From Cupriavidus respiraculi (GTDB lineage Bacteria; Pseudomonadota; Gammaproteobacteria; Burkholderiales; Burkholderiaceae), in the NCBI RefSeq assembly GCF_914271545.1, contig NZ_CAJZAH010000006.1, forward strand, positions 124,001 through 188,000: a DNA stretch of 64,000 nucleotides, written 5' to 3'. The translations under genes and the position numbers were made by a program. How positions within the stretch are numbered: the first letter of the stretch is position 1; each line of letters begins with the position of its first letter. The notes beneath the pieces are model-generated. The model was not told the origin of the DNA. It made no database searches and saw only the letters and a program-made list of their open reading frames with translations. Of the stretch, positions 7,531 to 21,384 are shown in pieces.

Positions 7531-7668
7531 TTGCTAAAACGAGCACACATCGGAACCCGGGCCCACCCGGGTCAGCGCGTTTTGGGGAGCGTTTCTGGGG
7601 TGCGCGGCATGGACGCCTGACGTCCATCCCTGCCGCACCGCAATACGGCACGACGCACGGGAGACCGG

Positions 7669-8796
7669 ATGCAGCTTCGACTGGAAGAGATCGCGCAGCA
7701 GGCAGGTTCGCAGACCCATCTTTATCCGATGTCCCTGGCGCCGGTTCCCGGCGCCGTTACCGTCCTGCTTGGCGCGACCCAGGCCGGCAAGACGTCGCTG
7801 ATGCGTGTGATGGCCGGGCTCGACCGGCCCAGCGCCGGCCGCGTCACCGTCGACGGCGCCGACGTGACCGGGATGCCGGTGCGCGAGCGCAACGTTTCGA
7901 TGGTGTACCAGCAGTTCATCAATTACCCGTCGCTGACGGTCTTCGACAATATCGCCTCGCCGCTGCGCCTGCGCGGCGGCCGCGCGGACCGCGCCGGCAT
8001 CGCGGTCCGGGTGAAGGACCTCGCGGCGCGGCTGCATATCGACCATCTGCTCGAGCGCTATCCGGCCGAACTCTCGGGCGGCCAGCAGCAGCGCGTGGCG
8101 CTGGCCCGGGCGCTGGCCAAGGAGGCGCCGCTGATGCTGCTCGACGAGCCGCTGGTGAACCTGGACTACAAGCTGCGCGAGGAATTGCGCGAGGAACTGA
8201 CCCAGCTGTTCGCGCACGGCGACGCCACCGTGATCTACGCCACCACCGAGCCCGGCGAGGCGCTGCTGCTCGGCGGCCATACGGCGGTGCTCGATGCCGG
8301 CGAGCTGCTGCAGTACGGGCCCACGCCGCAGGTCTTCCACTATCCGGACTCGCTCCGCGTGGCGCGCGCCTTCAGCGATCCGCCGATGAACCTCGTGCCG
8401 GGGCAGATGGAGGACGGCCACGTGATGCTGGCCGGCGGCATCGATATCGCGCTGCCCACCGCGGTGCCCTACAGCGGTCCGGTGACCCTCGGCGTGCGCG
8501 CCGGCGCGGTCGGGATCGCGGGGCAGGGCGGGACCGGGGTGAGCGGGGGCGCGGTGCCCGCCACGATGCCCGTGCCCGTGCCGGGCAAGGTGGCGCTGGC
8601 CGAGCTGTCCGGCTCCGATACCTTCGTGCACGCCGATACGCCGGTGGGCAACCTGGTCGCGCAGTTCCAGGGCGTGCTGGAGCTGGCGCTGGGCGAGGCC
8701 GTGACCATGCTGCTGCCTTCCGCGCAGCTCTACCTGTTCGATGCCGAGGGCCGGCGCATCCATGCGCCGTGCCAGCCCGGCACGCGGGAGGCATGA
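7669..8796 (+). CDS. glpS: glycerol ABC importer ATPase, subunit GlpS
   Basis: First ATPase of a GlpSTPQUV-type glycerol importer. Walker A is GATQAGKT (35-42), the Q-loop is MVYQQF near 78-83, the signature is a perfect LSGGQ (135-139), and Walker B is LMLLDE (155-160). The position that normally carries the switch histidine reads ATTEPGEA, with Thr193 replacing His. The C-terminal third is a divergent TOBE/MalK-like regulatory domain. It is the first gene of the operon, one base before glpT. The missing H-loop His suggests this subunit's own ATP site is catalytically weak; see the finding on site asymmetry. Confidence 0.92.
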   Translation: MQLRLEEIAQQAGSQTHLYPMSLAPVPGAVTVLLGATQAGKTSLMRVMAGLDRPSAGRVTVDGADVTGMPVRERNVSMVYQQFINYPSLTVFDNIASPLRLRGGRADRAGIAVRVKDLAARLHIDHLLERYPAELSGGQQQRVALARALAKEAPLMLLDEPLVNLDYKLREELREELTQLFAHGDATVIYATTEPGEALLLGGHTAVLDAGELLQYGPTPQVFHYPDSLRVARAFSDPPMNLVPGQMEDGHVMLAGGIDIALPTAVPYSGPVTLGVRAGAVGIAGQGGTGVSGGAVPATMPVPVPGKVALAELSGSDTFVHADTPVGNLVAQFQGVLELALGEAVTMLLPSAQLYLFDAEGRRIHAPCQPGTREA

Positions 8797-13950: not shown

Positions 13951-14610
13951 TCAGTCGGTGCTGTACTTCGGCGAGCGCGGCCCGTAGAGGATACCGCCGG
14001 GCTGGCCGGCCGAGAGCAGCCGGTTGCTCGCCACGCCGGCCACGGAATGGCTCGCGTCCATGGCGCTGTTGACGATCTGCTTGACCGCCGCGGCCACCAG
14101 CATGCCGACGAGGCCGCCGCCACCGCTGTTACCGCCTTCGTTGTTCGATGCGGAAGCCTGGCCGCTCCAGAGGCTGGTGCCCGTCTTCAGGTCCACCAGC
14201 TTGGCGTTGGCGGTCACCACCGTTGCGCTGTTGATGACCGTGTAGCGGGTGCCGTAGTTGGTGACGGTGATGTAGAGCGCCGCATCGGCACCGAAGATTT
14301 CGCGCAGCTTCTCGGGCGCGACGGCGTGGATTTCGCCGGGCTGCGTCAGCCCGTTCTGCTTGAACGTCTCGTCCACCAGCGTCACGGGCATGACGTAGTA
14401 GCCGGCTTCCGCCAGCGGGAAGGTCGCCTGCGACAGCACGCTGTAGCTGGCCTGGACCTCGGGCGAGTCGTTCTGCGGAGGCAGCACCAGGATCGTGCGC
14501 GGGCGTGCCTGTTTGAACGCGGCGTAGTCGACCTGCCTCGGCGTCGCGCAGCCTGTCGCCAGCACGGCCACCGCTACCAGCGGCAGAAGGCGTTTACACA
14601 GTGTTTTCAT
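13951..14610 (-). CDS. DUF799 (GNA1162-type) lipoprotein
   Basis: A 219-residue lipoprotein. The signal ends at LATGC with the modified Cys at position 21 (ATGCATPRQ). The mature part matches the DUF799/GNA1162 family (RTILVLPPQNDSPEVQASYS; TNYGTRYTVINSATVVTANA), whose fold resembles the TolB/CsgG N-terminal region. A Gly-rich hinge (NNEGGNSGGGG) precedes a hydrophobic segment. It is last in a CsgG-DUF4810-DUF799 operon found in many Proteobacteria and overlaps the DUF4810 gene by four bases. Function is unknown; an outer-membrane complex with its operon partners is likely. Confidence 0.9.
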   Translation of the reverse strand: MKTLCKRLLPLVAVAVLATGCATPRQVDYAAFKQARPRTILVLPPQNDSPEVQASYSVLSQATFPLAEAGYYVMPVTLVDETFKQNGLTQPGEIHAVAPEKLREIFGADAALYITVTNYGTRYTVINSATVVTANAKLVDLKTGTSLWSGQASASNNEGGNSGGGGLVGMLVAAAVKQIVNSAMDASHSVAGVASNRLLSAGQPGGILYGPRSPKYSTD

Positions 14611-15011
14611 CGCTTGAGCTCCACCTTCTTGTCGTCGGCCTGGGCCTTTTTGTCGGTGCGCTTCACGTTGCGCAGCAGGAAGTCCACATAGGTGCCGGAC
14701 TCGGGAAACAGCCGCTTTTCGGTCTGGAATTCACGGACCATTTCGTCGTCCTTGCCGAGGTCCGCGTACAGCAGGCCAAGGTGCGCGTGGTAGCCCGGAG
14801 GCGGCAGCTTGCCGGACGCCTTGATCTTCTCCAGGTCGGCCTCGAGCACCTGGATCTGTGCCTCCTTGGGTTCGCCCTTGAAGTACTGATAGACCTGCGG
14901 CTGATAGCCCTCCCACTGGTACAGCGTGGCTTGATTGGCGCAGCCGACCAGCAGCGCCGTGCCCACCGCGGCCAGCCATGCCGACCGCGAGGTGTGCAAA
15001 CTCTTGTTCAT
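14607..15011 (-). CDS. DUF4810 lipoprotein
   Basis: A 134-residue lipoprotein with lipobox LLVGC (ANQATLYQWEGYQPQVYQYF follows). The YQWEGY-x-YF stretch and the later GYHAHLGLLYADLGKDDEM helices mark the DUF4810 family; the second half has a TPR-like hairpin. The charged tail (KKAQADDKKVELKR) is exposed. It is encoded between the CsgG and DUF799 genes with four-base overlap downstream, so the three proteins are made together. Confidence 0.9.
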   Translation of the reverse strand: MNKSLHTSRSAWLAAVGTALLVGCANQATLYQWEGYQPQVYQYFKGEPKEAQIQVLEADLEKIKASGKLPPPGYHAHLGLLYADLGKDDEMVREFQTEKRLFPESGTYVDFLLRNVKRTDKKAQADDKKVELKR

Positions 15012-15035
15012 GATGACCCGTTCCTCGAACGATGA

Positions 15036-15713
15036 TTACTGAATGGCGGGCTTCCAGGCCCCGCTCTCGATACCGCCGACCAGCTTGGTAACCGCCTCGC
15101 GCACGGCCAGGTCCAGCACCTTGCCGTTGAGCGTCGAGTCGTAGCTTTGCGTGCCGCCGAAGCCGACGATCTCGCGGCTGGACAGCTCGTATTCGCCGGC
15201 GCCCTGGCTGCTGAAGACGACTTCGGACGTCTTGATGTTGACGACGTTCAGCGCGACCTTGGCGTAGGCCACCTGGGTCTTGCCGCGGCCCAGCAGGCCG
15301 AACAGCTGGCGGTCCCCGACTTCCTTGCGGCCGAACTCGGTGACGTCCCCCGTGATCACGAAGTCCGCGCCCTTCAGGCTCTGCTGTTGCTGCTTGATGG
15401 AGGCCTCGCGCTTGATCTCCTCGAGGTTGTCGCGGTCCAGCACGTTGAAGCGGTTGGTCTGCTGCAGATGGGTCACGAGGATGGTCTTGGCCTGGCCGCC
15501 GAGACGATCGACGCCGTCCGAGAAGACGCCCCGCATATAGCTGGAGCGGTTGTCGAACTTGCCGACGGCGATGGGAGCGCGGGCGCCGTGGTACGCGCGG
15601 CTCGCGGCTTCGACCTGCTGCACCGGCAGCGCGCGCGACGATTCGGCGGCGCAACCGGCCAGCGCGGCCGCGGCCGCGATGACGAGCAGGGGGAGGGCAT
15701 GCACAGTCTTCAC
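15036..15713 (-). CDS. CsgG/HfaB-family outer-membrane lipoprotein
   Basis: A 225-residue lipoprotein with lipobox ALAGC at Cys20. The CsgG fold is evident from APIAVGKFDNRSSYMRG, RFNVLDRDNLEEIKREASI and GADFVITGDVTEFG. CsgG in curli systems forms an oligomeric secretion channel, but no curli genes are present here. Relatives in CsgG-DUF4810-DUF799 operons have no settled role. It is first in its operon, so the promoter should lie in 15714-15950, where I find no convincing match. Confidence 0.88.
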   Translation of the reverse strand: MKTVHALPLLVIAAAAALAGCAAESSRALPVQQVEAASRAYHGARAPIAVGKFDNRSSYMRGVFSDGVDRLGGQAKTILVTHLQQTNRFNVLDRDNLEEIKREASIKQQQQSLKGADFVITGDVTEFGRKEVGDRQLFGLLGRGKTQVAYAKVALNVVNIKTSEVVFSSQGAGEYELSSREIVGFGGTQSYDSTLNGKVLDLAVREAVTKLVGGIESGAWKPAIQ

Positions 15714-17020: not shown

Positions 17021-17587
17021 TCAGGGGGCGACCGACGCCATCAGCAACTCGTCGGCCGCGTCGAGCCGCTCGGGGGTGCCGAACAGCCGCGAGGCGATCA
17101 GGCCGTTCTGCAGCGTGGCGAACACCGCCTGCGCGATGGCCTTGGGCGGCAGCGGCAGGGGCTGCTCGCGCTGCGCGGCGGACTGCTCCAGCAGATGCCG
17201 GATCCAGGCCTCGTTCATCGTGTAGAAGTCCTTCAGCACCCGGTGCACGGGCTCGGGCAGCGACATGGCTTCGGTCGACAGCATGCCGGCCAGGCAGATC
17301 AGGTCGCCATGCGCGCTGTCGCGCCACGACTGCAGGTAGCGCCGCGCCTGCTCCGTGGACGGCAGCGTGTCGTCGATGGCCCGCAGTTCGCTGGCTACGC
17401 GGTTGCTGTACTCCGTCACCGCAGCCAGCACGAGGTCTTCCTTGGTGGGGAAGTGGTAGTGGACGCTCGAGGTCTTGACGCCGACCAGATCGGCCAGGTC
17501 ACGATAGCTGAAGCCATTGAATCCCCGGCGCCGCAGTAGCACCAGGGCGTGCTCGAGCAGTTGTTCGCGAACGGATGGGGCTTTCAT
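17021..17587 (-). CDS. TetR/AcrR-family transcriptional regulator
   Basis: A 188-residue regulator with a TetR helix-turn-helix at about 8-55 (GFNGFSYRDLADLVGVKTSS then VHYHFPTKEDL), then a helical ligand domain. Its overall look (LICLAGMLSTEAMSLPEPV; FATLQNGLIASRLFG) resembles the AcuR/YcdC-like group whose ligands are often small electrophiles or acids; the ligand is unknown. A CTATC-N4-GATAG palindrome lies 12 bases upstream of its start, suggesting autoregulation. The next genes on the same strand are a 32-residue peptide and a TDGAR-repeat protein whose upstream regions carry related palindromes. Confidence 0.88.
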   Translation of the reverse strand: MKAPSVREQLLEHALVLLRRRGFNGFSYRDLADLVGVKTSSVHYHFPTKEDLVLAAVTEYSNRVASELRAIDDTLPSTEQARRYLQSWRDSAHGDLICLAGMLSTEAMSLPEPVHRVLKDFYTMNEAWIRHLLEQSAAQREQPLPLPPKAIAQAVFATLQNGLIASRLFGTPERLDAADELLMASVAP

Positions 17588-17598
17588 GGTGCACTCGT

Positions 17599-17612
17599 CT
17601 ATCTGTCGATAG
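17599..17612. promoter_or_regulatory. candidate autoregulatory operator of the TetR gene
   Basis: CTATCTGTCGATAG has perfect 5-base arms (CTATC/GATAG) around four bases and sits 12 bases before the TetR start codon, where a repressor would block the promoter or leader. The TATC/GATA half-sites resemble those upstream of the repeat-protein genes, but the spacing differs. Confidence 0.45.
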
Positions 17613-17680: not shown

Positions 17681-17779
17681 TCAGGCGGGCAGGACCTGCG
17701 CCACCATCGCCACCGCCGAACCGCTCACCACGCAGACCGCCAGGTAACCGGCGATCAGTATGCTGTTGCGCTTGTTCAT
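17681..17779 (-). CDS. 32-residue membrane peptide
   Basis: This short ORF encodes a peptide starting MNKRNSILIAGYLAVCVVSG, with a basic N-terminus, one hydrophobic helix and a VLPA end. A GGAG ribosome site lies six bases before the ATG, which supports translation. It lies between the TetR gene and the first TDGAR-repeat gene, all on the minus strand. The ribosome site is part of a pair of alternative hairpins (17784-17820). Function is unknown; expression linked to the neighbouring genes is plausible. Confidence 0.5.
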   Translation of the reverse strand: MNKRNSILIAGYLAVCVVSGSAVAMVAQVLPA

Positions 17780-17783
17780 GATG

Positions 17784-17820
17784 GGCTCCGTCTGTTGCGG
17801 AGCCGTGGTCATCGGCTCCG
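17784..17820 (-). promoter_or_regulatory. three-segment alternative hairpin over the 32-residue peptide ribosome site
   Basis: Read on the minus strand the leader contains CGGAGCC (17820-17814), GGCTCCG (17804-17798) and CGGAGCC (17790-17784). The last segment holds the ribosome site. The middle segment can pair either with the first (site free) or with the last (site hidden). Both stems would be 7 bp and GC-rich. Confidence 0.45.
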
Positions 17821-17861
17821 CGCTGTGTTGCTATTTGTGCGATTCGTCATGCGACGCGGCC

Positions 17862-18533
17862 TCAGGCGTTGGCGCCTTCGGAGAACACGTCGAACTGGCC
17901 GCTGCGCGCGCCGTCGGTGAAGGCGCTGCGCTCGCCGGTGCGGGCGCCGTCGGTGTAGACGTCGCGGGCGCGGCCGGGGGCGGCGGACACGCCGGTGCGA
18001 TCCAGGCCTGCGACGATGCGGGCGCCGTCGGTGTACGGGTCGACCGAGCGGGCGCCGTCCGTGAAGTTGCTGCGCTCGCCGGTGCGGGCACCGTCGGTGA
18101 AGGCGCTGCGTTCACCGGTGCGGGCGCCATCGGTAAAGGCGCTGCGCTCCAGGCGGGCGACGATGCGGGCACCGTCCGTGTACGGGTCGACCGAGCGGGC
18201 GCCGTCGGTGAAGCTGCTGCGCTCGCCGCTGCGGGCGCCATCCGTGAAGGCGCTGCGCTCGCCGGAGCGGGCACCGTCGGTAAAGGCGCTACGGTCCAGG
18301 CCGGCAACGATGCGGGCACCGTCGGTGTACGGATCGACCTTGCGGGCGCCATCAGTGAAGGCGCTACGCTCGCCGGTGCGGGCACCGTCGGTGAAGGCGC
18401 TGCGCTCACCGGTGCGGAATTCGTAGCCGTACTTGTCGGCGGCAACGGGGGCGGCCTGCGCGGTGCCGGCGACGAAGGCGGCGGCGAGGGTAGCGGCGGT
18501 GATGACGGTCTTGGCAAAGGTCGATGCGGTCAT
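17862..18533 (-). CDS. secreted TDGAR-repeat protein, copy 1
   Basis: A 223-residue exported protein of unknown function. The ATG at 18533 is chosen because GGAG lies six bases before it; an in-frame ATG 12 bases upstream has no ribosome site. A signal peptide ends near AQA-27/APVA. The rest is almost wholly repeats ending in (F/Y)TDGA: 13 clear units and a final FSEGA. They form super-repeats of about 49 residues ordered as two GERSxFTDGA units, one VDPYTDGA and one RIVAxLxRSAFTDGA. Acidic and basic residues alternate and there is no Cys. Similar TDGA-rich proteins occur in Burkholderiaceae, some, as I recall, mislabelled as helicases. A copy with only four substitutions lies at 20436-21107. 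Confidence 0.8.
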   Translation of the reverse strand: MTASTFAKTVITAATLAAAFVAGTAQAAPVAADKYGYEFRTGERSAFTDGARTGERSAFTDGARKVDPYTDGARIVAGLDRSAFTDGARSGERSAFTDGARSGERSSFTDGARSVDPYTDGARIVARLERSAFTDGARTGERSAFTDGARTGERSNFTDGARSVDPYTDGARIVAGLDRTGVSAAPGRARDVYTDGARTGERSAFTDGARSGQFDVFSEGANA

Positions 18534-18612
18534 GATGTTCTCCATTCGGTAGCGGTCTCGCCTTGGCGAGGATGGTTAAGAGGTACGGGTTGGGGACTGT
18601 CTCCGGATCGGT

Positions 18613-18628
18613 TATCTACTAATAGATA
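18613..18628. promoter_or_regulatory. palindrome, proximal site of repeat gene copy 1
   Basis: TATCTACTAATAGATA has 6-base inverted arms and lies 80 bases upstream of the start codon. It differs only at the two central purines from the distal site at 18735-18750, giving a shared TATCTACTRRTAGATA pattern typical of a dimeric regulator such as a TetR protein. Confidence 0.6.
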
Positions 18629-18734
18629 GAGAGGCCGGTCCAAAAAAAGAGGGAAGTCCCCCGGGTGTTGCTTGGTCGCGCCGCCTGCCTCGTCGTTCAC
18701 TTGGGAGGGGGTGCCGCGTCCATGGATCGAATAG

Positions 18735-18750
18735 TATCTACTGGTAGATA
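18735..18750. promoter_or_regulatory. palindrome, distal site of repeat gene copy 1
   Basis: TATCTACTGGTAGATA has 7-base perfect inverted arms, about 200 bases upstream of the repeat gene and near the outer edge of the duplicated segment. A further GATAG directly follows, so binding could extend beyond 16 bases. Confidence 0.6.
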
Positions 18751-18762
18751 GATAGTCAAGGA

Positions 18763-19202
18763 CTTTTTTCGGCGACCCCGGAAGTTGTATGGTGGCTTCC
18801 GGGTGCGCAACGCCGTCGCCATCTCACTCCTGCGCGAAGGCGCAGGCTTCGCGCACCCCGCGCATCGGAAAGCGTGCCGGGCGCGCTCTCCGGTCTATGC
18901 CAGTCCGTCTACGGAATTTTCAGGCGAACGGCGACAAGCGCGGACGTCGTCGCGGCGGCGCCGAGAATCCCGGCAGAACCGGCGAAGAAGTTCTACAACT
19001 CCAGCAGAGAGCGGCGTTTGCCATCGGGCCTTCGTCTGCGGCAGGGATCCGGCGTGGGTGCCGGAACGGCCGTGAGAACGACGAACGGAAAAGGGCGGCG
19101 CAAGCGCATCCAGACCGCGGCACGGTCCGCGGCGCGGCGTCGCGGCGTCGCGGACCATGCTACAGGCTGGTACACGGCGCTCCCCTTCTGCAAGGAGAAC
19201 TC
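18763..19202. other. 440-bp gap with no recognisable gene
   Basis: Several frames are open here but none has a ribosome site, a family match or normal composition. The region is Arg/Pro-coding in most frames, which is typical of GC-rich non-coding DNA. It probably holds the promoter of the AI-2E-family transporter gene, but I find no clear -35/-10 pair. Confidence 0.5.
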
Positions 19203-20315
19203 ATGCGGCCCATGCCTCTTTCGGAATGGACTTTCTCTCGCGGGATGCTCGATGTGCTGATCCGCGCCGGGCTGATCGCCGTCCTCGCGATCTTCTGCTT
19301 CCGCATCTTCTATCCGTTCCTCGATATCGTCCTGTGGTCCGTCATCCTGGCCGTCACCATGTATCCGCTGCAGGTGCGGATGCGCCGGCGGCTCGGCATG
19401 CGCGACGGTCGCAGCGCCACGCTGATCGTGCTGGTGTCGCTGGCCCTGATCATGGTGCCGGCCTACGTGCTGGGTGTGGCGTTGCTCGAATCGGTGGAGA
19501 ACGCGATGCACGCGGTCCGCAACGAAAGCATCCGCATACCCCCGCCTCCGGACTTCGTCGCGGGCTGGCCGCTGTTCGGCCAGCGGCTGCATGCGGCATG
19601 GCTGTCCGCGTCCACGGACATGACCGGCATGGTGGAGAAGTTCCTGCCGCAGTTCCGCGGCATCACGATGGCGGTGCTCGGCAAGCTGGCGAGCCTGGGC
19701 GTCGCGCTGCTGGTATTCGTGCTCGCGCTGTTCCTCGCGGGCATCATCATGGCGTACGGGGAGGAGGGCCATCGCAGCGCGCTGCGCATCGCCGCGCGGG
19801 TCTTCGGCGCGGAGCGGGGCCCGCGCATCGCGCTGCTATGCACCGCGACCATCCGGGCCGTGGCCCAGGGCGTGGTCGGCATCGCGTTCATCCAGATGCT
19901 GCTGATCGGCATCGCCTTCGTGGTCAAGGGCGTGCCGGCCGCCGGCCTGCTGGCGCTGCTGGTGCTGTTGCTGGGCATCATGCAATTGCCGGCCACGCTG
20001 ATCACGCTGCCCGTCATCGCTTATGTCTTCTACACGGACGGCGTCAACCTCGCCACGGTGATATTCGCCGCCTATGTGTTCGTCGCCGGCCTGGCGGACA
20101 ACGTGCTCAAGCCGCTGATGCTCGGGCGCGGCGTGGACGTGCCGATGCCGGTGGTACTGATCGGCGCGCTGGGCGGCATGGTGACGGGCGGCGTGATCGG
20201 CCTGTTCATCGGGCCGGTGGTGCTGTCGGTGGGTTACCGCCTGTTCTGGCTGTGGGTCGACGAGCCGCCGCTGGCCGTCCCGGCCGACGAGCCGACCGCG
20301 AGGGTGAGCCCCTGA
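19203..20315 (+). CDS. AI-2E-family (PerM/TqsA-like) membrane transporter
   Basis: A 370-residue inner-membrane protein of the AI-2E transporter family, with about seven to eight hydrophobic helices. It shows an N-terminal FRIFYPFLDIVLWSVILAVT helix pair, a long soluble loop (about 100-150), and the C-terminal VFVAGLADNVLKPLMLGRGV and GLFIGPVVLSVGYRL landmarks. The ATG follows an AAGGAG ribosome site. Family members include Na+/H+ antiporters and exporters, so autoinducer transport should not be assumed. It sits between the two copies of the TDGAR-repeat gene on the opposite strand. Confidence 0.85.
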   Translation: MRPMPLSEWTFSRGMLDVLIRAGLIAVLAIFCFRIFYPFLDIVLWSVILAVTMYPLQVRMRRRLGMRDGRSATLIVLVSLALIMVPAYVLGVALLESVENAMHAVRNESIRIPPPPDFVAGWPLFGQRLHAAWLSASTDMTGMVEKFLPQFRGITMAVLGKLASLGVALLVFVLALFLAGIIMAYGEEGHRSALRIAARVFGAERGPRIALLCTATIRAVAQGVVGIAFIQMLLIGIAFVVKGVPAAGLLALLVLLLGIMQLPATLITLPVIAYVFYTDGVNLATVIFAAYVFVAGLADNVLKPLMLGRGVDVPMPVVLIGALGGMVTGGVIGLFIGPVVLSVGYRLFWLWVDEPPLAVPADEPTARVSP

Positions 20316-20384
20316 TGTCGATGCCGGGCACGGCGCCGTTGGCGGACAGCGGGCGCCACGCGCGACGATCGTTCGGCCGTAACG

Positions 20385-20412
20385 ACGATGCCGCCCCGAA
20401 GGGCGGCATCGT
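20385..20412. terminator. hairpin between convergent transporter gene and repeat gene copy 2
   Basis: ACGATGCCGCCC pairs with GGGCGGCATCGT around a CGAA tetraloop, a 12-bp stem between converging genes. Neither side has a T run, so it is a weak or partly Rho-aided terminator. Confidence 0.55.
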
Positions 20413-20435
20413 TCATCTCACGCGCGATGCGGATC

Positions 20436-21107
20436 TCAGGCGTTGGCGCCTTCGGAGAACACGTCGAACTGGCCGCTGCGCGCGCCGTCGGTGAAGGCGC
20501 TGCGCTCGCCGGTGCGGGCGCCGTCGGTGTAGACGTCGCGGGCGCGGCCGGGGGCGGCGGACACGCCGGTGCGATCCAGGCCTGCGACGATGCGGGCGCC
20601 GTCGGTGTACGGGTCGACCGAGCGGGCGCCGTCCGTGAAGCTGCTGCGCTCGCCGGTGCGGGCACCGTCGGTGAAGGCGCTGCGTTCACCGGTGCGGGCG
20701 CCATCGGTAAAGGCGCTGCGCTCCAGGCGGGCGACGATGCGGGCACCATCCGTGTACGGGTCGACCGAGCGGGCGCCGTCGGTGAAGCTGTTGCGCTCGC
20801 CGCTGCGGGCGCCATCCGTGAAGGCGCTGCGCTCGCCGGAGCGGGCACCGTCGGTAAAGGCGCTACGGTCCAGGCCGGCAACGATGCGGGCACCGTCGGT
20901 GTACGGATCGACCTTGCGGGCGCCATCAGTGAAGGCGCTACGCTCGCCGGTGCGGGCACCGTCGGTGAAGGCGCTGCGCTCACCGGTGCGGAATTCGTAG
21001 CCGTACTTGTCGGCGGCAACGGGCGCGGCCTGCGCGGTGCCGGCGACGAAGGCGGCGGCGAGGGTAGCGGCGGTGATGACGGTCTTGGCAAAGGTCGATG
21101 CGGTCAT
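20436..21107 (-). CDS. secreted TDGAR-repeat protein, copy 2
   Basis: A 223-residue twin of the protein at 17862-18533, with the same signal peptide, the same 13 TDGA units plus FSEGA, and the same GGAG-spaced start. Two residue changes are visible: an Asn/Ser swap in the GERSxF unit near the third super-repeat, and a Ser/Asn swap in the second super-repeat (ERNSF here, ERSSF in copy 1). The remaining two coding substitutions are silent. This near identity indicates recent duplication or ongoing gene conversion. Its downstream neighbour differs from copy 1: a convergent transporter gene instead of the 32-residue peptide. Confidence 0.8.
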   Translation of the reverse strand: MTASTFAKTVITAATLAAAFVAGTAQAAPVAADKYGYEFRTGERSAFTDGARTGERSAFTDGARKVDPYTDGARIVAGLDRSAFTDGARSGERSAFTDGARSGERNSFTDGARSVDPYTDGARIVARLERSAFTDGARTGERSAFTDGARTGERSSFTDGARSVDPYTDGARIVAGLDRTGVSAAPGRARDVYTDGARTGERSAFTDGARSGQFDVFSEGANA

Positions 21108-21186
21108 GATGTTCTCCATTCGGTAGCGGTCTCGCCTTGGCGAGGATGGTTAAGAGGTACGGGTTGGGGACTGTCTCCGGATCGGT

Positions 21187-21202
21187 TATCTACTAATAGA
21201 TA
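21187..21202. promoter_or_regulatory. palindrome, proximal site of repeat gene copy 2
   Basis: The same TATCTACTAATAGATA as at copy 1, 80 bases before the copy 2 start codon. Confidence 0.6.
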
Positions 21203-21307
21203 GAGAGGCCGGTCCAAAAAAAGAGGGAGTCCCCCGGGTGTTGCTTGGTCGCGCCGCCTGCCTCGTCGTTCACTTGGGAGGGGGTGCCGCGTCCATGGAT
21301 CGAATAG

Positions 21308-21323
21308 TATCTACTGGTAGATA
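21308..21323. promoter_or_regulatory. palindrome, distal site of repeat gene copy 2
   Basis: The same TATCTACTGGTAGATA as the distal site of copy 1, about 12 bases inside the end of the duplicated block. Confidence 0.6.
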
Positions 21324-21384
21324 GATAGTCAAGGAGTTTTTTGCTGCACCCCCCAATTTATTGATTCGCCCGCGAGAGGCCGTG

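Follow-up and report, generated by a model that had tools for sequence, protein, structure and literature searches.

Why does Cupriavidus respiraculi carry two almost identical copies of a gene for a secreted-looking repeat protein around the gene of a membrane protein, and what keeps the copies alike? Here we address this question for a stretch of 64,000 nucleotides (assembly GCF_914271545.1, contig NZ_CAJZAH010000006.1, positions 124,001 to 188,000), called the window below, in which the two genes, TDGAR A and TDGAR B, stand on either side of an AI-2E-family gene. An earlier reading of the letters alone (the sequence-only reading) had described the duplication and had passed over the neighbouring repressor gene, the operator-like sites, the gene of a small peptide and the 12 other members of the family elsewhere in the genome. 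Both duplicated blocks are probably output genes of one repressor circuit. This control circuit appears to be the new part, the CopQ-like family to which the repeat proteins belong being already known.

The repeat blocks lie at 17861..18762 (block A) and 20435..21335 (block B) and were delimited by alignment and exact-block analysis. The alignment bears out that two blocks of about 0.9 kb differ by four substitutions, two of them residue-changing, and one indel; all four substitutions fall within the coding sequence (S110N, N160S and two silent changes), the indel is a single base in the control region, and the longest stretch that the blocks share exactly is 232 bp. Each block runs from the stop codon to 3 bases before the -35 box, and beyond these ends the flanks are dissimilar, apart from a common 6-base T tract (plus strand) that comes after a single mismatch on the promoter side. 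One gene with its control region is thus the copied unit, as had been proposed, but the control region is 217 bp long in block A and not about 230 bp. The genes, found as open reading frames and by alignment (A, 17862..18545; B, 20436..21119; both minus strand), encode secreted-looking CopQ-like repeat proteins of 227 amino acids that are 99% identical. In agreement with the 13 (F/Y)TDGA units in super-repeats of about 49 residues reported before, each copy has exactly 13 [FY]TDGA units (residues 51, 63, 73, 88, 100, 112, 122, 137, 149, 161, 171, 197 and 209), spaced 12-10-15-12 with a period of 49 residues (147 nt). The N-terminus, as read from the sequence, is hydrophobic, resembles a signal peptide and ends in AQA, which suggests that the protein is secreted. 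The gene between the copies (19203..20315) does lie on the strand opposite to theirs, the plus strand, and its product, an AI-2E/YdiK-like membrane protein by Pfam and NCBIfam, does belong to the AI-2E family (PF01594).

A TetR-family regulator of 188 amino acids with a conserved Cys98 is encoded downstream of TDGAR A (17021..17587, minus strand). Its homologues were collected as numbered loci (the best 80 of 201 kept; 77 loci in named genomes), and the 50 Cupriavidus-type loci among them (L031-L080, several of which end at contig ends) contain a TDGAR open reading frame in 48 cases: 14 have TDGAR genes on either side of TetR, three have a divergent second gene, 31 have one and two have none. 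In the window, each TDGAR copy is preceded by two 16-bp palindromes of the form TATCTA-N4-TAGATA, at distances of 68 and about 190 bp from the start. The proximal operator-like palindromes are located at 18613..18628 (copy A, TATCTACTAATAGATA) and 21187..21202 (copy B), and the distal ones at 18735..18750 (copy A, TATCTACTGGTAGATA) and 21308..21323 (copy B). The distal palindrome fills the 17-bp spacer of a sigma-70-like promoter, recognized by eye and laid out in the same way in relatives, with TTGACT as the -35 and TACTAT as the -10 box (promoter A, 18731..18759, with the boxes at 18759-18754 and 18736-18731; promoter B, 21304..21332; both minus strand). A genome-wide search allowing up to two mismatches found seven distinct palindrome sites, all at the window copies or at a second cassette on contig C1 (locus L010), which consists of a TDGAR gene, a small open reading frame and a TetR gene; a control search with the reversed palindrome found none. 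The association with TetR cassettes is equally exclusive in the 50 related loci, where the vicinity of TetR (-1300 to +2000 of the TetR start; 158,654 positions) contains 156 sites that match at 11 or more of the 12 positions, and the 596,253 positions away from it contain none. In 77 of 155 operators, TTGA is found exactly 9 bp upstream, which places a 17-bp spacer over the operator, and many relatives have a good palindrome before the TetR gene. The operator of Escherichia coli NemR is a palindrome with two 6-bp halves and a 4-bp centre, a layout like that of TATCTA-N4-TAGATA, although the letters differ. Judged from these sequence patterns, the palindromes are likely binding sites of the neighbouring TetR repressor. 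Divergent TDGAR gene pairs with operators between or beside them were seen at L058, L061 and L062.

The candidate signal of the regulator was approached through its structure and its relatives. The AlphaFold2 model of the TetR protein has a mean predicted local distance difference test (pLDDT) score of 94, and its best fold matches in Foldseek are structures of TetR proteins for which no inducer is named; NemR (4yze) comes at rank 10. The Cys at position 98 is retained in 78 of 79 TetR sequences; in the alignment it falls on Cys106 of E. coli NemR (K-12 record), which passages of PMC7464077 describe as the HOCl-sensing Cys. NemR (nemRA-gloA) and the window TetR thus have in common the TetR fold and a Cys at this position, and differ in their targets, which are detoxifying enzymes in the case of NemR and would be a secreted repeat protein here. 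The NemR equivalog model was not among the 23 NCBIfam families matched (E<=1), the presence of that model in the library not having been checked. In Burkholderia, Paraburkholderia and Chitinasiproducens, relatives with 44-49% identity have an OsmC/Ohr gene as their neighbour and carry the same palindromes (L081, L082, L084, L154, L155 and L156, the last three being plasmid or third-replicon loci of Burkholderia and Paraburkholderia), and in these TetR-ohr(-hydrolase) cassettes the palindromes stand before TetR and before ohr. A TetR-ohr-lipase cluster of B. cenocepacia J2315 is induced 5.9-, 49.3- and 96.6-fold by H2O2 and 3.8-, 20.3- and 11.3-fold by NaOCl, according to passages of PMC2830190. 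The Burkholderia cluster (BCAS0084-0086 type) resembles the window in having a related TetR and the same palindromes before TetR and target, and differs in its target, a protein for resistance to organic hydroperoxides in place of the TDGAR genes; the TetR beside ohr (BCAS0084 type) is a candidate regulator of this oxidant-induced cluster and apparently unstudied. By comparison with these relatives, the window TetR may sense oxidants or thiol-binding metals. Of the distant TetR relatives in Ruegeria and other alphaproteobacteria (L091-L104), many have TATCTA-N4-TAGGTA-like sites; at L091, the genes for TetR and for a short-chain dehydrogenase are divergently oriented.

The interval between the TDGAR A and TetR genes contains an unannotated small open reading frame (smORF; 17681..17779, minus strand), which is conserved in the genus, is preceded by a ribosome-binding-like GGAG and encodes a peptide of 32 amino acids (MNKRNSILIAGYLAVCVVSGSAVAMVAQVLPA). 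With a narrow search pattern, from whose matches unrelated short peptides were removed by eye, such a peptide was found in 34 of the 50 related loci, in 33 of them behind a TDGAR gene. Eight loci with an identical peptide have eight different DNA versions, in which one, zero and eight sites vary at codon positions 1, 2 and 3, respectively, so that the smORF is coding. The peptides comprise 32-33 residues and a single helix (for example at L033, L054 and L068), and the four members scanned had no Pfam match. The product is a third conserved part of the cassette and may be a membrane peptide. Locus L064 (Cupriavidus sp. AU9028, 7666-8570) has kept both operators, the small peptide and TetR and has no TDGAR gene.

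The TDGAR proteins belong to the CopQ-like family of Cupriavidus and Ralstonia, which is known, metal-induced and poorly understood. The sequence-only reading had called the function of this protein type unknown, which needs qualifying because metal induction of the family and a role of PrsQ1 and PrsQ2 in silver resistance are described in parts of PMC2864759 and PMC7380067; according to the latter, deletion of prsQ1 or prsQ2 abolishes the silver resistance of mutant NA4S. The finding is less isolated than had been held and is a variant of a known, poorly explained family. CopQ-like proteins have been characterized by a signal sequence, a repeated RDXXTDG motif, induction by various metals and a near-identical pair, mmsQ/mmsQ1 (passages of PMC2864759); 21 copQ homologues have been counted in C. 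metallidurans CH34 (passages of PMC7563307), and the family is reported as confined to Cupriavidus and Ralstonia. CopQ, MmrQ, CzcJ, MmtQ, MmsQ/MmsQ1, MmmQ and PrsQ1/2 of C. metallidurans are like the TDGAR proteins in their signal sequence (a putative one in the TDGAR proteins), repeated TDG motifs and spacers of set length, and also in the many paralogues per genome and the published near-identical pair. The TDGAR proteins differ in having 13 units instead of the 3-4 reported for CopQ, MmrQ and CzcJ, and in the 49-residue super-repeat, the neighbouring TetR with palindromic sites and the location of the pair within one locus. The strict RDXXTDG motif occurs once in the TDGAR protein (RDVYTDG) and the relaxed [FY]TDGA 13 times at fixed spacing; paralogues from the same genome bridge the two forms. 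The motif letters FTDGAR and TDGARTG had no match in a text search of the literature.

A search of the C. respiraculi genome with the TDGAR protein gave 21 matches at E<=1. Of 15 places outside the window, 12 have a secreted-looking open reading frame with TDGA-type units and three have none, which brings the TDGAR-type genes of this genome to at least 14. Matches were found in 24 of the 40 relatives searched (own genome counted), all of one genus, and in 19 of 120 genomes of the family (2 of 25 genera); a Klebsiella plasmid gave one weak match of 29%. Among 20 neighbouring proteins tested at 10 of the 12 family loci that this genome has beyond the window, two look metal-related, both at L018, where the family member is adjoined by CzcE and an outer-membrane efflux protein. 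Another member (L013, 3028-3676) has a similar small peptide behind it and no TATCTA operators, and a second control class may exist.

The loci assigned to C. metallidurans CH34, on the agreement of their coordinates with NC_007974.2 and NC_007971.2, allow a comparison with published genes. Two TDGAR genes of the chromid, at 771 and 1571 kb, are TetR-linked; the 1571-kb gene has a near-identical counterpart at 2349 kb, which carries the same palindromes and has no full-length TetR match in the 7 kb fetched. The spacing between the 1571- and 2349-kb genes (778 kb for 686 locus tags) fits mmsQ and mmsQ1, and a TDGAR gene at 1059 kb lies beside an RND gene, where mmmQ is expected. By interpolation, the 771-kb gene would be the nearest candidate for mmtQ, for which induction by Cd, Hg and Pb, a moderate response to Zn and none to Cu or Ni are reported (passages of PMC2864759), the pattern expected of a thiol sensor.

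The repeat protein itself offers few structural clues. AlphaFold2 (15 sequences) predicted no fold (pLDDT 42), and the low-confidence model has a helix at residues 3-28. The mature part (196 residues) contains 31 acidic and 29 basic residues, with Asp and Glu making up 16%, and no Cys, His, Met or Trp. Scavenging of oxidants by Cys or Met can be dismissed on this composition. The protein may be a disordered envelope protein that is made in bulk under stress, which is the weakest step of the argument. Scytovirin is a disulphide-rich lectin, and the TDGAR protein matches its Pfam family (PF20888) with 28.6 bits at a gathering cut-off of 27; since the mature protein is free of Cys and a scan of three other family members yielded no match of this kind, membership was rejected and the match treated as a chance repeat match. 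The sub-threshold Pfam matches of the repeat proteins (Binary_toxB with 19.1 bits against a cut-off of 25, and others) were likewise set aside as chance repeat matches. A long open frame antisense to TDGAR A (17760-18629, plus strand) is probably a by-product of the GC-rich repeats.

How such copies stay alike is suggested by 14 related loci in which the whole TDGAR-smORF-TetR cassette is tandemly duplicated, 13 of which were compared (two from one strain; L065, which has a run of N, was left out). On average, smORF paralogues are 72.0% identical within a genome and 72.5% between species, and TetR paralogues 78.3% and 77.8%, whereas orthologues are closer (smORF 93.9/87.1%, TetR 86.2/82.8%), so that the tandem duplication predates these species. 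The TDGAR genes behave differently: their signal DNA is 91.6% identical within a genome and 84.7% identical to the paralogue of other species (means of the 13 loci), and the mature proteins show 89.8% within a genome and 80.5% between species, values that depend on the repeat register and cover aligned columns only. Within-genome identity of the signal DNA exceeds the orthologue mean in all 13 loci, and in all 14 tandem loci identity is higher for the TDGAR block than for the TetR block (75-96% vs 71-75%). The TDGAR genes of old tandem cassettes have thus been homogenized, which suggests that in related genomes copying between such genes maintains their similarity. In the near-identical CH34 pair, 758 bp that begin two bases ahead of the -35 box and reach into the stop codon are 99.2% identical, and the smORFs that follow differ; the window pair has the same two boundaries as this independent pair. 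Should old paralogues have only the functional unit in common, conversion would be confined to that unit, which would explain the sharp ends. The sequence-only reading had offered dosage amplification or active gene conversion for the pair; gene and control region stood as the copied unit, and of the two processes conversion is somewhat better supported. From these comparisons we consider gene conversion somewhat likelier than a new duplication as the source of the near-identity of the window copies.

Taken together, these data lead to the following model. The TetR protein (17021-17587) would bind TATCTA-N4-TAGATA at two points of each TDGAR copy, the promoter spacer and the leader, and would thereby block both copies and probably also the smORF and TetR genes that follow copy A. 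Cys98 would be attacked by oxidants or thiol-binding metals in a NemR-like manner and the repressor would release the DNA, whereupon the cell would export the disordered, repeat-built, periplasmic CopQ-like protein in large amounts, with the one-helix membrane peptide made alongside, and the envelope would be protected. Copy B would raise the dose, one copy having overwritten the other by gene conversion confined to the unit from -35 box to stop codon, as appears to have happened repeatedly in the genus. The fuller proposal, which we hold to be almost an even call, is that an ancestral oxidant- or thiol-sensing, ohr-controlling TetR of the Burkholderiaceae was rewired in Cupriavidus to an emergency cassette of TDGAR protein, 33-residue peptide and repressor, in which the repeat gene with its operator promoter (-35 to stop) is recurrently converted, so that copies, tandem as well as scattered, remain alike and fire together while their neighbours diverge. 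No published description of the regulatory circuit or the small protein was found in a literature search that left subscription papers mostly outside, and no TetR-CopQ link appears in the TetR/copQ passages of PMC2864759, PMC7380067, PMC10304115 and PMC10133563. The CopQ-like proteins of metal-resistant bacteria, long known, metal-induced and poorly explained, now become directly testable, since the family has gained a candidate repressor, an exact putative operator, a likely class of inducers, a small protein that had been overlooked and indications of concerted evolution of the gene alone. The analysis also points to a candidate regulator for the oxidant-induced ohr cluster of Burkholderia.

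Several observations weigh against this model, some of them concerning the circuit and its signal and others the conversion. The window TetR has Ala100 and so does not have the second Cys of the CxC motif present in 47 of the 79 sequences, and it is 20-22% identical to NemR. The palindrome just upstream of its own start (17599..17612, CTATCTGTCGATAG) is degenerate, matching the consensus at 9 of 12 positions when set in the 16-bp register. No such palindrome was present in the stretches fetched for 11 of the 12 members that lie beyond the window, and the circuit therefore does not explain the family as a whole. At L083 (Pararobbsia), TetR and palindromes are present and no ohr was seen beside them, the orthology to BCAS0084 of J2315 would follow from the equal gene order in L154-L156, and mmtQ was placed by interpolation only, about 18-26 kb off. 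Regarding the signal, it is unlikely that TetR senses a small ligand (e.g. an aromatic or acyl compound) in place of oxidants and that the Cys is structural. Relatives with similar palindromes in Ruegeria and Ideonella adjoin short-chain dehydrogenases or a cupin and not ohr, no inducer is mentioned in the titles of the closest relatives with solved structures, and a different ligand is possible in the distant relatives L087 and L091, which adjoin dehydrogenases or a cupin. Against a small ligand in the window speak the presence of Cys98 in almost all sequences at the position of NemR Cys106, the link to ohr and the H2O2 and NaOCl induction in Burkholderia (passages of PMC2830190). It is also rather unlikely that the TDGAR protein is a metal-binding periplasmic sponge and that metals, not oxidants, are the true signal and target. 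Such a role would agree with the metal induction of CopQ-like genes (parts of PMC2864759 and PMC7563307), with family members that adjoin czcE and with the Asp and Glu content of the mature protein. The mature protein has none of the residues Cys, His and Met, however, 18 of 20 neighbouring proteins at 10 own-genome paralogues are not metal-resistance proteins, and a response to Cd, Hg and Pb that neither Cu nor Ni elicits equally fits a thiol sensor.

As for the conversion, within-genome identity of the signal DNA exceeds that of the closest orthologue in just 3 of 13 loci, and the control-region DNA exceeds the orthologue mean in just 9 of 13 (most clearly at L060, with 96.5%). The other TDGAR-TetR cassette of the genome has not been homogenized with the window copies (67% over 418 bp), and neither a smORF nor a TetR gene follows copy B, which means that this copy is not a whole old cassette. 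The presence of smORF and TetR behind copy A only would fit a recent duplication, in which copy B was lately copied with its promoter along with the gain of the AI-2E gene and is too young to have diverged, for instance after single-crossover integration of a circle carrying a TDGAR and the AI-2E gene. We regard this course of events as a real possibility with somewhat less than an even chance. It agrees further with the six genomes that are best by WaaF (79-81%), which have no close AI-2E homologue (matches of 26-28% at most) and thus mark the segment between the copies as a lineage difference, and with the finding that the order TDGAR, other gene, TDGAR upstream of TetR occurs in none of the 50 related loci (several ending at contig ends). 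A recombinational duplication would not be expected to end at functional boundaries, the -35 box and the stop codon, as both the window pair and the CH34 pair do, and the homogenized TDGAR genes of the old tandem cassettes also favour conversion. An assembly artefact, with one real copy placed twice, is highly improbable. The assembly is a draft of 18 contigs, but a single contig carries both copies, which are unlike at five places and have unrelated flanks on either side, and the same kind of pair is present in the complete sequence of CH34.

The AI-2E gene is probably incidental to the TDGAR genes. Its product matches AI-2E_transport (PF01594; E 1.7e-28, 100.2 bits at a cut-off of 34.3), and its sole NCBIfam match is YdiK, below the cut-off. 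It shares the Pfam domain with the AI-2E family and YdiK, and nothing suggests that it is functionally linked with the repeat genes: at the seven homologues fetched from other genomes (the best-scoring seven of many), no TDGAR gene lies within 1.5 kb, and the notion of a functional unit was dropped for this reason. Between the convergent AI-2E and TDGAR B genes, a hairpin, GATGCCGCCC-CGAA-GGGCGGCATC, was read from the sequence at 20387..20410. Elsewhere in the window, three adjacent lipoprotein-like genes are located near a WaaF-like gene (13951-15713, minus strand).

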